From NCBI GenBank assembly GCA_012839895.1, contig DUML01000090.1:1-34808 (forward strand): DNA of 34,808 nt, written 5' to 3'. Positions 8,709 through 26,445 of the stretch are shown piece after piece (the first letter of the stretch is position 1; each line of letters begins with the position of its first letter). Origin of the DNA: Peptococcaceae bacterium. Its GTDB lineage: Bacteria; Bacillota; Desulfitobacteriia; Desulfitobacteriales; Syntrophobotulaceae. The position numbers were made by a program, and so were the translations under genes. The notes under the pieces are model-generated. The model ran no database searches. It saw only the letters and a list, made by a program, of their open reading frames with translations, and was not told the DNA's origin.

Positions 8709-8770
8709 ATAATAAATTAAGGTTATTACCTATCATGAATATGCTTATAAAATATATAAAATAGGCTTAG

Positions 8771-8800
8771 AGCCCTTGCCCAAGAAAACAGGCAGGGGCT
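8771..8800. terminator. hairpin between convergent genes
   Basis: AGCCCTTGCC (8771-8780) pairs with GGCAGGGGCT (8791-8800) with one mismatch and a ten-base loop. It lies between the ends of two convergent genes, so it likely ends both transcripts, although neither side has a T tract. Confidence 0.5.
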
Positions 8801-8821
8801 GTTGTGCTTAAATCGACTTGA

Positions 8822-10222
8822 TTATATATGCGCTTCCTCCATGTCATTCATGGAAAAACCTTCTCTTTTTACATCACTCATTGTTAAGTGTAGTATCTCA
8901 TCGTCTATTACCTTATTCTTAAGTTTTTTTACAGCTCCATAGGGTTCTATTAAAGAGAGCTTATCCCCGTTTCCGGAAATAACCCAGAGGGTTTTATAAC
9001 CTTTAGGTTTAGTTACTAGTTTTTCTTCCCCTTTGCCGTCTGTAAAATAAATTAACATATTAAAATTATTTTTATTGGCATATTCAAATACCGGGGTAAA
9101 GCGGGTGCTTCCTCTTATATTTAGACGTTCCTTAATATCCTTGGCAGTTCTAATTTTATATACCCGTCTGATTTCACAGTCGCACTCTATGACGGTAATT
9201 TCATGGTTGTAGTTCTTGAGGATAGCCAGCACTTCTTTCATGGCCTGATTAAATTCCCCATCGCTGATACTGCCGCTGATATCCAAAGCAACGGCAACTT
9301 TGGCTTTATAACTGCGAAGTTCACCTCTTAAATCCAAGCGCTCGGGCTGTCTTCGATTTCTTCTTGTTATGGTTTTCTTTTTATCGCTGGCAATAGTTCC
9401 CATTAACTTTTTAAGGTATAAGTTCCAAGGCAATTCGCCGTTATTGCTTTTCAGGGAAGCAATTATACTTTCTAAGTATTTAGGAAGGCTGCCTTTTTGA
9501 GAATTGTTAATATACTTTTCCGTGAATTCCTGGAGAGTTTTTTCGTCAATATCACTGGATTCTTCCCAAATGTCATGGGCTTTTTCAGGGTTATAATCGG
9601 TTTCTATATCTTCAATACTATTGTTTTCTGTTTCCTCATCTTCTTCTAGCACGTCCAGGACACCTTGGATTTCAGCGACATAATATTCAAAAGGTTTAAA
9701 GGGCAGGAGTTTTAAAGAATACTTTGAATTAACCCGTTCTAAGGTAACAGCGTTGGGGGGCAGATGTTCTAAATAGGTATTAACTACTATATCCATGGCC
9801 AGATTGCAGGCTAGGGAGCTGTACTGGGCCTTTATAGCTTTGGCCCTGATTAAATGACCGGATACGATATGAAGTATTTCGTGCTTAATAGTGCTTTCCA
9901 TTTGTCTTAGATTGAGGCCTAAAAAAAGGAGAGGATTAAAATAAATTACATACTTAGCTTTTTGGAAATTAACAGCGGTGGGAGAGGTAAGGTTAAAACG
10001 CATTTCTCTGGACATTTGAAACAAAAAATAACCAAAGAAATTATCTTTGTCTTCCATAAGACCTAAACAAACTTGATCCACAAGACGGAAAAAATCATGT
10101 TGAAAATCCTGGGGTATAGTAAGCTTGGAATTAGGATTCTTTTGTTTGGCTTTAAAAAAATTATTAACAATAATGTTCGCTTTTTCCGAAAGCGCCTCAA
10201 CTTGGCGGGCAAAAAAAGACAT
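8822..10222 (-). CDS. metallopeptidase-like plus VWA-like domain protein (DUF2201/COG3864 type)
   Basis: This 466-residue protein has two parts. The N-terminal part carries a zinc-metallopeptidase-like motif HEILH at residues 114-118, followed by a further His at 123. A long acidic linker (about 190-230) leads to a C-terminal von Willebrand A-like domain with the MIDAS motif DISGS at 314-318. Proteins of this build are commonly encoded beside a MoxR-like AAA ATPase, as here: the ATPase gene ends six bases upstream. A metal-dependent adaptor role driven by the ATPase is likely, and proteolysis is possible. Substrates are unknown. It is the third gene of a three-gene minus-strand cassette. A second, truncated relative is at 25183-26445. 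Confidence 0.85.
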   Translation of the reverse strand: MSFFARQVEALSEKANIIVNNFFKAKQKNPNSKLTIPQDFQHDFFRLVDQVCLGLMEDKDNFFGYFLFQMSREMRFNLTSPTAVNFQKAKYVIYFNPLLFLGLNLRQMESTIKHEILHIVSGHLIRAKAIKAQYSSLACNLAMDIVVNTYLEHLPPNAVTLERVNSKYSLKLLPFKPFEYYVAEIQGVLDVLEEDEETENNSIEDIETDYNPEKAHDIWEESSDIDEKTLQEFTEKYINNSQKGSLPKYLESIIASLKSNNGELPWNLYLKKLMGTIASDKKKTITRRNRRQPERLDLRGELRSYKAKVAVALDISGSISDGEFNQAMKEVLAILKNYNHEITVIECDCEIRRVYKIRTAKDIKERLNIRGSTRFTPVFEYANKNNFNMLIYFTDGKGEEKLVTKPKGYKTLWVISGNGDKLSLIEPYGAVKKLKNKVIDDEILHLTMSDVKREGFSMNDMEEAHI

Positions 10223-10228
10223 TATTTA

Positions 10229-11356
10229 TCACCTGATCATTTTATAAGCATCGAAATATGATTCTATAAAAGCTTCATTTTCCAAAGCATATTTATACAC
10301 TTCCGGGTAAGTGTTCCTAATGTCCTTCATGATTCCTATCTTTAGATCCGCAGGGTAAATGTTCAAAACTTCCACAAGCCTGTCCAGGAAATAGTTTGGC
10401 AAAGGATTGCTGTTTTTCGAATTTGCTTCCAAGTTTTGCAGGATATTCCTGGCCGCCAGATAAAGGCGGGTAGGGCTTTCATTTTTGATCTTTTCTTTAA
10501 CTGTTTCAGAAAGGTATTCCCCGGAAAAAACATCCTCATAAGAGAGGAGCGGACGATAGTCGGCTTCAATAAAGCTCAGAAACTCTTCGGCTATTACCCG
10601 TCCCACATTGCCTTTGACCACATTTAAGAACACAGAGCGGGGGATAGAGTCTTTATTTTCTTTGTAAACTTTATAACAGCTGGAAATTCGCTCATAACTT
10701 CTGGGAGTTGCCCGGAGGTCATCCTCATTAATCTTGTGCAAATATTCAGGGAAAGTAGAGATAAATTCCACGACTTTTGGCTCAATTCCCGCTCCAAGAG
10801 CCCAATCTATCCACTGTCTGGAATCCGGTTCCATATAGAGCCAGACGAATCTGTTTTCTTGGGCGGGGTCCATATCCACAACTTGATATTCGTATTCTGA
10901 GCCATATTTACTTGACGGGTTCATGGCCGCTAATATTTTAACTTTTTCAGGTACTTTATAGCCGTTTATTTCCCTGTTTAAAATAATGTTCATTAGTTCC
11001 TGTTGAACTGTATGTTCACAACGGTTGATTTCATCAATAAATAATAGGACTGTTTTCCCTTTGGCTATTTCTTCGTCAATTTCTCTGAGCTTATGATGAA
11101 CGGCATATACTGTTGCTTTTTTTTCAGATTGACTATTTTGGCCGTTTGGACCAACATAGTTTTCTATCGTTGGCAGACCGCCTATTTCACCTTCTTTGAG
11201 GAGATTTCCATTAATAATAATTAAGCTCCAATTGTTTTTTTCAGCTATTTCCCTGGCTAATGCTGTCTTGCCTATGCCGCTTTCACCCACAATTAGGGGG
11301 ACTGCTCCAGTTGATAATACCAATTCAGCACTTTTTAAGGTGTCTGTATAATTCAT
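10229..11356 (-). CDS. MoxR-like AAA ATPase
   Basis: This 375-residue AAA ATPase has Walker A GESGIGKT at residues 24-31, Walker B LLFIDEIN at 104-111 and sensor 1 in AAMNPSS with Asn at 146. The layout matches the dynein-related/MoxR group, which remodels or activates VWA-domain partners. The gene lies between the repeat-protein gene and the VWA gene, with gaps of 12 and 6 bases, so the three should be co-transcribed. Its ribosome binding site GGAG overlaps the stop codon of the upstream gene, which suggests translational coupling. The role is not established; related ATPase-VWA pairs are known in cofactor insertion and in predicted conflict systems. Confidence 0.88.
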   Translation of the reverse strand: MNYTDTLKSAELVLSTGAVPLIVGESGIGKTALAREIAEKNNWSLIIINGNLLKEGEIGGLPTIENYVGPNGQNSQSEKKATVYAVHHKLREIDEEIAKGKTVLLFIDEINRCEHTVQQELMNIILNREINGYKVPEKVKILAAMNPSSKYGSEYEYQVVDMDPAQENRFVWLYMEPDSRQWIDWALGAGIEPKVVEFISTFPEYLHKINEDDLRATPRSYERISSCYKVYKENKDSIPRSVFLNVVKGNVGRVIAEEFLSFIEADYRPLLSYEDVFSGEYLSETVKEKIKNESPTRLYLAARNILQNLEANSKNSNPLPNYFLDRLVEVLNIYPADLKIGIMKDIRNTYPEVYKYALENEAFIESYFDAYKMIR

Positions 11357-11368
11357 CCCGATTCACTC

Positions 11369-12172
11369 CTACATTATCTTCAGCTTTTCATCTACGGCTA
11401 TTTTCTTAGCTTTTTTACTACCGTATTTATAAATAAGCATAATTTTGTCAAGGGGCAGAAGGCCGTTGTTCTTATCTATAGTGCTGCAGTTTAGAAAGTC
11501 TCTGATATATTTTTCTTCAACGTCTTCCTTAGCCAGCACTTCTTTTAATACTTGTTCCAAGTCTTCCCGAGTTATTTCGTTTACTACATATTTAATAACT
11601 AAAATATTCACTTTTAAGAACTCTAAGATTTTATTTTTGTCCAAATTGTTGATAAAGGTAATAGCTCGCTCATTATTTTTGACGGCTAGAAGCTCGGCTT
11701 GAAAGGTGGGAGTTTTTATATATCTTAAGGCTTCATAGTTAATAGTGACCGCTTCTTCCTGGACACTTGGAAAAGGCTCTTTAATAAACTTGATGGAATC
11801 ATAATTTTTTCTGACAGCTAATAATTGCAATTCTTCGCTGGGATTTTCAACGTATTGAATAGCCCAGCCGGCCTGACTTAAAGCTAATTTGATCAACTTG
11901 TCGCTGGGGTTTTTTATATACTGGAGATTAGTCCAACCGGCGTTAATGGCTTTAATCATCATTTCTTCGGTTGGGTTAGTGATAAATTGAATGGCCCGGG
12001 CATCATTGTCCAAGGCTAGCTCCTGCATTTCTGTGGTTGGGTTTTCAATATATTCTAATGTAAGCCCATTTTGCCGTAGAGCCAATAGCTTCATTTCCTC
12101 ATTTGGGTTAGGGATATTAGCAATTGCTTTTGGATTATATTTAATCATTTCCATAAGCATTGAATTTTCCAT
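11369..12172 (-). CDS. 22-residue repeat protein (DUF4116-like), first gene of the AAA-VWA cassette
   Basis: This 267-residue protein is built largely of a helical repeat with an exact 22-residue period. The conserved proline of each unit falls at 23, 45, 67, 89, 111, 133 and 155, most within a pattern such as IQFITNPTEEM or LEYIENPTTEM, and each unit continues with a short LALxxx helix. It resembles the DUF4116 repeats. The last 90 residues are a different, lysine-rich helical region. There is no signal peptide or membrane segment. The start at 12172 has AAGGA nine bases ahead. As the first gene before an ATPase and a VWA protein it may provide target recognition. That role is inference; the repeats and operon are seen. 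Confidence 0.75.
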   Translation of the reverse strand: MENSMLMEMIKYNPKAIANIPNPNEEMKLLALRQNGLTLEYIENPTTEMQELALDNDARAIQFITNPTEEMMIKAINAGWTNLQYIKNPSDKLIKLALSQAGWAIQYVENPSEELQLLAVRKNYDSIKFIKEPFPSVQEEAVTINYEALRYIKTPTFQAELLAVKNNERAITFINNLDKNKILEFLKVNILVIKYVVNEITREDLEQVLKEVLAKEDVEEKYIRDFLNCSTIDKNNGLLPLDKIMLIYKYGSKKAKKIAVDEKLKIM

Positions 12173-12278
12173 AATATTGCTTCCTTTGCTCTTTATAGTT
12201 TAGATAATCAATTAAAAATTAGAAATCAAAAAGAAGAAATAATTTGAAAATCTTTTCTATAGCTTTAACCAAATAGTA

Positions 12279-12307
12279 ATTATACCACTGCGGAAAAAAG
12301 CGGTCTA
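12279..12307 (-). promoter_or_regulatory. sigma-A promoter of the repeat/AAA/VWA cassette
   Basis: On the minus strand TAGACC (complement of 12302-12307) and TATAAT (complement of 12279-12284) are 17 bases apart. The transcript would start near 12272, about 100 bases before the ATG at 12172. Confidence 0.6.
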
Positions 12308-24683: not shown

Positions 24684-24749
24684 TATATTTATGCATAAAT
24701 AGTTTTCAACAATGTATAAGTATTCAATTATTGAGGGGAGATGTTTAGA

Positions 24750-25190
24750 GTGAAAAGATTAATGGTATTAATTCTTGTTTCTCTGCTTATTTTGACGATG
24801 GCAGGTTGCGGTTCAAGCAATGCCCCCAGCGGCGGCGCAGACAAAGATGGGGGTAAGGAAGTACCTAAGGTTAAGGTGATTGATATTCCCCTGACACAAG
24901 AGGAATATGCTTTTGGGGTAGATAAAAATCAACCCGAACTCCTTGAAGAAGTAAACAAATTCGTAGCTAAGATTAAAGAAGATGGTACATTTGACCAAAT
25001 TTTGAACAATTATTCTGGCGACGGAGAGCCAAAGGCTGTTACATCCGCTAAATTAGACAACACCAAAGACCAGCTTGTTGTAGCCACCAATGCTGCTTTT
25101 GAACCTTTTGAATATACCAAAGGTGATAAGTATTACGGTATAGATATGGAAATAGCTGAACTTCTGGCTAAGCACCTGGGTAAAGAGTCA
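24750..25190 (+). pseudogene. 5' fragment of an amino-acid ABC transporter substrate-binding lipoprotein
   Basis: The frame begins with a lipoprotein signal (LTMAGCG lipobox), then a segment with IDIPLTQEEYAFGVDKNQP and FDQILNNYSGDGEPKA. It goes on into the true start of the binding fold: QLVVATNAAFEPFEYTKGDK and YYGIDMEIAELLAKHLGKE. Family members keep about 200 more residues after this point. Here the homology stops at about 25183 and the frame ends SACAQA at 25206-25208. Sequence of an unrelated VWA gene begins at the same place, so a deletion or recombination has removed the rest. GTG 24750 fits the GAGGGGA site better than ATG 24741, which lies one base from it. It is exported but cannot bind ligand. 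Confidence 0.8.
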
Positions 25191-26445
25191 GCCTGTGCCC
25201 AAGCCTGATTTAGGAACATTGGCTGTGGATATGTACTGGAGGCTTTATTATGATCCCTTGATATTACCTCAGTGGCCGGTGGAAGTAATTCAAGGCGTGC
25301 TTTATCATGAGGTTTGTCACCTTTTGCGCGATCATGCTGCCAGAATGAAAGATTATGACCCACATTTGAGCAATATGGCGACTGATGCGGAAATAAATGA
25401 TGACCTGATTCGGGAAGGCATAAGATTCCCACATGAACCGCTGACTCCTCAATCCCTTGGCCAGCCTGAAAATCTCCTTGCTGAGGAATACTACACCGCC
25501 CTGGTAAGTAAGCAAGAACAGAAATCAGAAAAACAAAGGCAATCCCAAACACATACCCGGCCGGATTCGGCCGAGGAGAATAATTCAGCGTCTAGAAGTG
25601 GCCAAGGAGATTATTCTAATGATCCTAGCGAAAGACAGAGCTCGGGTTTAGACGAGAGTGTTAGGACAGAAAACGATCAATCTGAGCGCCCTTTGTCCGG
25701 TTCTGGTTGGTGCGGCTCTTGTGCGACGGGGCAGATGGCACCCTGGGAGGAACCTCCACCAAGCAAAGGGTTATTAATCGGACTGAGTAAAATGGAAGGA
25801 GAGCTAATCCGCCGGCATGTTGCTAATGAAATCCAAGAACATGCTAAGGCTCAAGGCCGGATCCCAGGGCACTGGCTTCGTTGGGCCAAAGAAAAGCTTC
25901 AGCCGCAAGTAGATTGGCGCAAACAACTGGCAGCGACTGTTCGGGCCTTCGTGGCTGACACGGCCGGAGCCACAGATTACTCTTACCGGCGCCCTTCACG
26001 TCGCCAAGGACAGGCCGTGAAAGGAAATGTTATTTTCCCGTCTCTGCGCTTCCCGGTACCATCAGTAGCCGTTATTGCAGATACAAGTGGCAGTATAGCG
26101 GATAGGATGCTGGCACAGATCCTTGCTGAAATAACCGGAATCTTAAAGGTTATAGGCCAAAGGGAAGGAGTTCGGGTTCTGGCAGTGGACCAAACTGTTC
26201 AGTTTTGTCGGCAGATCTTTCGCCCGGAACAAGTCCAATTAATCGGTGGCGGCGGAACAGATATGGGTGTCGGCTTGGAAGCAGCAGCTAGGTTAAAGCC
26301 CTCACCCCAGTTAGGAATTGTAATTACGGATGGGTATACATCGTGGCCTGCACGGCCCCCGCGGGGGATGAAAGTAATAGTTGTATTAATCGGAGAGGGT
26401 AAAGCGCCGTCTTGGGCTAAGACAATAAACATTAGTTCCGCTTAG
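25183..26445 (+). pseudogene. N-terminally truncated metallopeptidase/VWA protein (DUF2201 type)
   Basis: The open frame encodes 416 residues from a GTG at 25195, but that GTG has no ribosome binding site and homologous sequence already reads QPVPKPDLGTLAVD across the junction. Relatives carry some 30 further residues ahead of this. Both functional motifs survive: HEVCH at 38-42 with a further His at 47, and a VWA MIDAS motif DTSGS at 296-300. Between them lies a polar, low-complexity linker (about 105-170). It has the same two-domain plan as the protein at 8822-10222 but is a different, more divergent member. The AAA ATPase gene that normally precedes such genes is gone, probably in the same deletion. 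Probably not expressed, though the body is intact. Confidence 0.75.

Follow-up and report, generated by a model that had tools for sequence, protein, structure and literature searches.

A conserved three-gene unit of Clostridia that links a DUF4116 repeat protein to a MoxR/metallopeptidase-VWA pair and may act as one ATP-driven remodelling machine

Within a window of 34,808 nucleotides (the whole stretch of DNA that was analysed, from a 2.84-Mb draft genome in 132 contigs), three minus-strand genes encode a DUF4116 repeat protein (REP), a MoxR-like AAA+ ATPase (ATP) and a protein with metallopeptidase and VWA-like domains (VWA), and this trio recurs in a single gene order across Clostridia. 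We cautiously favour the interpretation that the trio is one ATP-driven protein-remodelling machine, in which REP would be the scaffold for recognition, joined to the other two proteins by its C-terminal cap. The preliminary description could match the combination to no described system, and in the literature searched on DUF4116, DUF2201 and MoxR/VWA there is likewise no account of the DUF4116 trio or of the repeat proteins that recur beside related pairs. The tight packing of the genes was confirmed, with gaps of 12 nt between REP and ATP and 6 nt between ATP and VWA. The locus comprises:

12279..12307, minus strand: promoter, consisting of TAGACC, a CTTTTTT-containing spacer and TGGTATAAT (promoter scoring, conservation in relatives)
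11369..12172, minus strand: REP, DUF4116 repeat protein of 267 aa, proposed recognition scaffold or adaptor (ORF, PF13475, AlphaFold2 model, period 22)
11576..12166, minus strand: predicted REP solenoid, residues 3-199, about eight and a half 22-residue two-helix units (model, periodicity, conservation)
11372..11575, minus strand: REP C-terminal cap, residues 200-267, trio-specific, with invariant G251, D261 and L264 (conservation, phage comparison)
10229..11356, minus strand: ATP, MoxR-like AAA+ ATPase of 375 aa (ORF, Pfam, conserved residues)
11264..11287, minus strand: ATP Walker A, GESGIGKT, with K30 and T31 in 74/74 (alignment)
11030..11050, minus strand: ATP Walker B, VLLFIDE, with D108 and E109 in 74/74 (alignment)
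8822..10222, minus strand: VWA, 466 aa, N-terminal zincin-like metallopeptidase domain (DUF2201_N) and VWA-like domain (DUF2201) (ORF, Pfam, model)
9854..9883, minus strand: VWA zinc motif, HEILHIVSGH, with H114 and E115 each in 73/74 and H118 and H123 in 74/74 (alignment)
9269..9283, minus strand: VWA MIDAS, D314-x-S316-x-S318, in 74/74, together with T373 (9104-9106) and D395 (9038-9040), also 74/74
8764..8807, minus strand: GC-rich stem-loop 3' of the last gene, terminator-like, weakly supported (folding z -1.25)

Pfam scores and conserved residues substantiate the earlier identification of ATP and VWA as a MoxR-type ATPase with a metallopeptidase-VWA partner. AAA_5 scored 39.8 bits in ATP (cut-off 22), and VWA scored 36.1 bits for DUF2201_N (23.2) and 69.6 bits for DUF2201 (26.4). 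The Walker A and B, sensor and arginine residues of ATP (K30, T31, D108, E109, N146, R169, R219 and R223) are invariant in all 74 aligned sequences, as are the five MIDAS residues of VWA, so that the 73 trios described below combine the AAA+ catalytic residues with an adjacent VWA protein of intact MIDAS, the hallmarks of MoxR/VWA chaperones. The zinc motif has lost one residue in each of two homologues (H114Q in L066 and E115Q in L104), and among related pairs, including those of phages, MIDAS is intact throughout and the zinc motif is gone in some. Since MIDAS persists in pairs that have lost the zinc motif, gripping of the client seems to matter more than its cleavage, and proteolysis may not be the essential step. 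The predicted model of VWA is good for both domains and poor for the linkers and the C-terminal end. No solved sequence relatives of ATP or VWA were found.

Scanning a species-genome collection with the ATP alignment yielded 80 independently fetched loci, spanning Desulfosporosinus, Clostridium, Clostridioides, Romboutsia, Terrisporobacter, Cellulosilyticum, Sarcina and others. At 73 of these 80 Clostridia loci the three genes are complete, always in the order REP-ATP-VWA and mostly with gaps near 12 nt and of 3-8 nt; the remaining seven are mostly explained by contig-end cuts or a split VWA frame. Among 61 related genomes, a close, full-length homologue of ATP is present at 21 other loci, where the three proteins are 62-79% identical to those of the window; REP lies upstream at all 21, and VWA adjoins ATP at 20 of them, the exception being G029, in which a transposase-like ORF sits between them. 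As the DUF4116 Pfam model alone missed REP in a six-frame search of its own genome, alignment A3 was used in its place. In the 47 related genomes covered by both order-level searches, REP and ATP occurred together in 21, neither occurred in 26, and one never occurred alone, while in a 299-genome phylum sample REP was detected in six genomes, the same six that have strong ATP and VWA. This neighbourhood search, proposed beforehand as a check, thus found the linkage to be clearly conserved, contrary to the refuting outcome named with it. Presence is patchy, with the trio in 17 of 24 sampled genomes of one genus.

The proposal of a single promoter was also upheld. The top-scoring promoter-like site 5' of the trio is TAGACC-17-TATAAT with TG ahead of the -10 (12307-12279, minus strand), and the extended -10 TGnTATAAT is found in 32 of 73 upstream regions, compared to a mean of 2.2 in mononucleotide shuffles; in Desulfosporosinus and its neighbours the entire stretch TAGACCCTTTTTTT...TGGTATAATCAT..TATTTAGATTAACTTAAAAAGTAT is shared. 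At the loci examined, a same-strand upstream gene, where present, is 45-524 nt distant, and the trio is therefore probably its own unit. In one Clostridium group the trio is preceded, at a distance of at least 78 nt, by a gene assigned by eye as a RelQ-like (p)ppGpp synthetase. Upstream motifs for sporulation, heat-shock, SOS and other regulators (sigE, sigF, sigG, sigK, sigB, CtsR, HrcA, LexA, Rex and Spo0A) did not exceed shuffles. The palindromic operators said to flank the genes did not hold up, as about half of dinucleotide shuffles match the best palindromes on both flanks, and the downstream palindrome seems to be part of the terminator-like stem-loop, itself weak (z -1.25).

Gene-tree distances for REP, ATP and VWA correlate with r of 0.93-0.96. 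Each comparison of two trees shows only 0-2 conflicts among splits supported at 0.95 or more, indicating that the trio has been inherited as a unit. Each of the three genes has a dN/dS of about 0.1-0.4 between close relatives, denoting purifying selection, with no sign of diversifying selection on REP. A conserved promoter of its own and co-inheritance do not alone prove physical interaction, and the genes could form a co-inherited operon whose products share a pathway, such as a stress response, without building one machine. We judge this highly improbable, as interaction is the general rule between MoxR proteins and their VWA partners (PMC9976466, PMC13036017) and as perfect one-to-one presence with constant order exceeds what is usual for a loose pathway.

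In the single machine that we favour instead, recognition would fall to REP. DUF4116 (PF13475) matches REP with 47.0 bits (gathering cut-off 24.9) and is the only Pfam family above cut-off; this score together with the 22-residue repeat places REP in DUF4116, and PADLOC returned no match. Seven prolines stand at residues 23, 45, 67, 89, 111, 133 and 155, the exact 22-residue spacing over seven units that had been pointed out previously, which none of 20,000 residue shuffles reached, and self-identity is maximal at lags 22 and 44. The structure prediction suggested at the outset was run on single chains, and the AlphaFold2 model of REP (pLDDT 95.4) depicts an alpha-solenoid of two-helix 22-residue units with a distinct C-terminal bundle as its closure, in agreement with an earlier contact-based model of DUF4116 as an alpha-solenoid (PMC8078820). 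This predicted fold supports the reading of REP as a binding scaffold. The best-conserved repeats are the units at residues 101-144, and W80, G251, D261 and L264 are invariant. REP length is nearly constant at 256-278 aa, the exceptions being L104, with 464 aa, and L093, which is short; this constancy sets REP apart from repeat scaffolds that diversify freely.

A fold search of the PDB with the REP model (Foldseek) gave no significant match. A single marginal sequence match to a solved protein was regarded as chance, and VIA-align found HEAT/ARM proteins and designed repeat proteins with middling scores, which were taken as similarity of arrangement only. Matches in a viral structure library are mainly DUF4116 proteins of giant viruses and of phage Atu_ph07. 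Phage DUF4116 proteins align with the REP repeats only, and the REP cap matched no phage protein even at E = 1. Because the cap is trio-specific and has no phage match, it is, judging from these alignments, a natural candidate for docking to the engine. In addition, acidic surface residues have been proposed for NorD binding (PMC9976466), and by analogy the invariant acidic D261 is a candidate MIDAS ligand.

The closest relatives of the trio ATP and VWA are the adjacent pair of the Bacillus jumbo phages AR9, PBS1 and BpSp, at about 32% identity, and the engine matches the phage families phrog_1314 (2.4e-58) and phrog_1297 (3.4e-57). In both the ATP and the VWA tree, in which bacterial pairs are sparsely sampled, the trio is sister to AR9/BpSp with support of 0.99, and other Bacillota pairs branch farther out. 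These comparisons indicate that the engine shares ancestry with the AR9/BpSp pair; transfer could have gone in either direction. A viral scan with a single ATPase sequence found nothing, and one with the ATP alignment gave one contig. No REP-type gene was found beside the phage pair; SCTP-2 and Atu_ph07 carry both the pair and a DUF4116 protein, far apart. The phage genes are mis-annotated with the label "HNH endonuclease"; in the trio they gain a counterpart in cells, which may lend itself more readily to study. The pair also occurs in other jumbo phages, and a virion-assembly role has been proposed (PMC7824862). However, the AR9 pair starts about 57 nt 3' of an annotated early promoter, and late expression is the pattern for 41 of the 43 virion protein genes of AR9 (PMC5312081). 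At least in AR9 the pair is therefore more likely to act early, which calls virion assembly into question for it.

These phage-borne nearest relatives, together with the patchy presence of the trio even inside one genus and the existence of MoxR-vWA ternary conflict systems (PMC7159879), are what could be expected of an anti-phage or conflict system of that type, in which REP senses an invader and the engine triggers a lethal or degradative output. The preliminary description had likewise connected the pair with predicted ATP-driven conflict systems, a reading that the results do not support. The third component is none of VMAP, iSTAND, FtsH or a beta-propeller; effector domains, among them the variable effector and EAD domains of such systems, were not detected, and sizes and domains are constant in 73 trios; no consistent defence genes were detected among 112 neighbouring proteins; and the trio ATPase had no match on plasmids. 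The trio is chromosomal and stable at some sites in some Clostridium lineages, and its fixed domain architecture and purifying selection also speak against conflict, which we consider quite improbable.

Beyond the trio, DUF2201_N was detected in 35 of 398 phylum genomes, and both partners are visible at about 22 non-trio loci. At six of these (L167, L168, L172, L174, L175 and L178), a same-strand BspA-type LRR protein adjoins the pair or sits between its genes, with LRR_5 matches at E of 3e-14 to 2e-94, and at L154 the ATPase gene is preceded by that of a pentapeptide-repeat protein, with a gap of 12 nt. The protein adjoining the pair at L176 matches no Pfam family, but inspection by eye shows tandem HR-DGPA-like repeats in it. 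Against a background of 2 LRR-like ORFs in 533 (624 kb from the six LRR genomes), the enrichment has a binomial P of about 2e-6, which becomes about 2e-5 when the two loci from one genus are treated as a single case; these values are approximate as they depend on slot counts and a home-made LRR profile. At many related pairs, no adjoining repeat protein was recognised. We propose a grouping of MoxR/DUF2201 pairs with repeat scaffolds, in which the contiguous same-strand repeat protein is DUF4116 (73 trios), LRR_5 (6 loci) or pentapeptide (1). It is conceivable, and we suggest it tentatively, that Bacillota possess a family of remodelling or proteolytic ATP-driven machines in which one phage-type MoxR/metallopeptidase-VWA engine has its target set by exchangeable repeat scaffolds of unrelated fold. 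If true, target recognition in an AAA+ machine would here follow a plug-in design, with the DUF4116 solenoid, BspA-type LRR, pentapeptide helix and others as scaffolds. That repeat proteins without homology to one another recur next to related engines suggests a general rule.

That recurrence also bears on whether REP is instead the dedicated client of the engine, matured, assembled or cleaved by the MoxR/VWA pair and then active elsewhere, as nitric oxide reductase is served by NorQD. One-to-one linkage suits a chaperone and its client equally well, DUF4116 proteins exist without the engine in phages and on plasmids, and there is no other possible client among constant neighbours, as no constant client gene adjoins the trio and its neighbours vary between lineages. 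Such a role nevertheless appears unlikely, given that REP lacks both a cofactor site and any enzyme domain, that its predicted simple solenoid has no obvious need of assembly help, and that non-homologous repeat proteins recur beside related engines.

In the machine that we infer, with REP as adaptor rather than client, ATP would form the usual AAA+ ring, onto which VWA would dock, gripping a client or adaptor via its MIDAS metal site and holding the zinc-metallopeptidase domain beside what is gripped. REP, as a rigid alpha-solenoid of fixed length, would recognise the client by its repeats and be coupled to the engine through the trio-specific cap, possibly with D261 contacting MIDAS. ATP hydrolysis would then twist VWA and pull the REP-bound client, leading to remodelling or to clipping at the zinc site. 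Related pairs in other Bacillota would work with other repeat scaffolds, such as the BspA-type LRR and pentapeptide proteins. The mechanical precedent is NorQ/NorD (PMC9976466, PMC13036017), in which a MoxR ring twists its VWA partner to remodel the target (PMC13036017). MoxR/VWA machines are widespread, their targets are known in few cases and target choice is mostly unclear; a one-to-one linked REP of fixed length with a putative docking cap would offer a concrete recognition component for such a machine.

Like NorQ/NorD and RavA/ViaA (PMC9976466, PMC13036017, PMC6987120), the trio combines a MoxR-type AAA+ gene with a neighbouring VWA gene whose product has an intact MIDAS, and the ring-plus-VWA mechanics proposed for those systems may by analogy apply to it. 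Unlike them, it has an extra metallopeptidase domain and a repeat protein, and has no constant client-enzyme neighbour. With the MoxR-vWA ternary conflict systems (PMC7159879) it shares the three-gene logic and the MoxR/VWA core, but its third component differs, effector domains are lacking, its architecture is fixed and it was found here in Clostridia; membership was rejected on the third component and the effectors. The jumbo-phage pair places a metallopeptidase-vWA protein next to a MoxR ATPase in the same order as the trio (AR9 gp028-gp029, BpSp gp083-gp084), and in AR9 and BpSp its zinc and MIDAS residues are those of the trio. These two phages have no DUF4116 protein, and the engine therefore works without REP there, whereas the trio is chromosomal and includes REP. 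Finally, the DUF4116 proteins of phages, giant viruses and Bacteroides plasmids share with REP the 22-residue alpha-solenoid repeats, and REP is set apart from them by its fixed length, its trio-specific C-terminal cap and its constant position adjoining the engine.

In 16 Clostridium loci (among L084-L109), a gene assigned by eye as a RelQ-like small (p)ppGpp synthetase lies upstream of the trio's DUF4116 repeat gene and is transcribed in the same orientation; its distance from the trio is in most cases 78-390 nt. The trio upstream regions of Desulfosporosinus and its relatives share a conserved, partly palindromic stretch, TTTAGATTAACTTAAA, located 3' of the -10 element (12240-12280 in the window), which may represent an operator or leader element. 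Within the trio itself, a transposase-like open reading frame sits between the ATPase and VWA genes of one related genome (G029, L142:2853-4403). DUF4116 repeats yielded up to 29 profile matches in phage contigs (viral contigs L121-L132, plus L111), and these matches were often tandem paralogues.

A separate group of MoxR/DUF2201 loci (L160, L164, L179) contains a conserved protein of 180-220 amino acids, encoded between the ATPase and VWA genes, that had no match in Pfam and carries a SSGLLETIEALK-like motif at its end. The window also contains a second DUF2201 metallopeptidase-VWA gene, which is missing approximately the first 30 profile positions and overlaps by 14 nt the end of a solute-binding-protein gene whose domain pieces are apparently in the wrong order (24741-26445). 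A deletion, rearrangement or assembly join is possible near 25150-25200.

The metallopeptidase-VWA protein of Bacillus jumbo phage AR9 (gp029, L113:6225-7649), whose own record note names pfam09967 and pfam13203, is a member of PHROG 1314 (phrog_1314), a family labeled "HNH endonuclease", and this incorrect label is repeated across many phage records. An annotated early promoter precedes the AR9 ATPase-VWA pair (L113:4932-7649), which fits poorly with the virion-assembly role that has been proposed for the pair in jumbo phages other than AR9 (PMC7824862).
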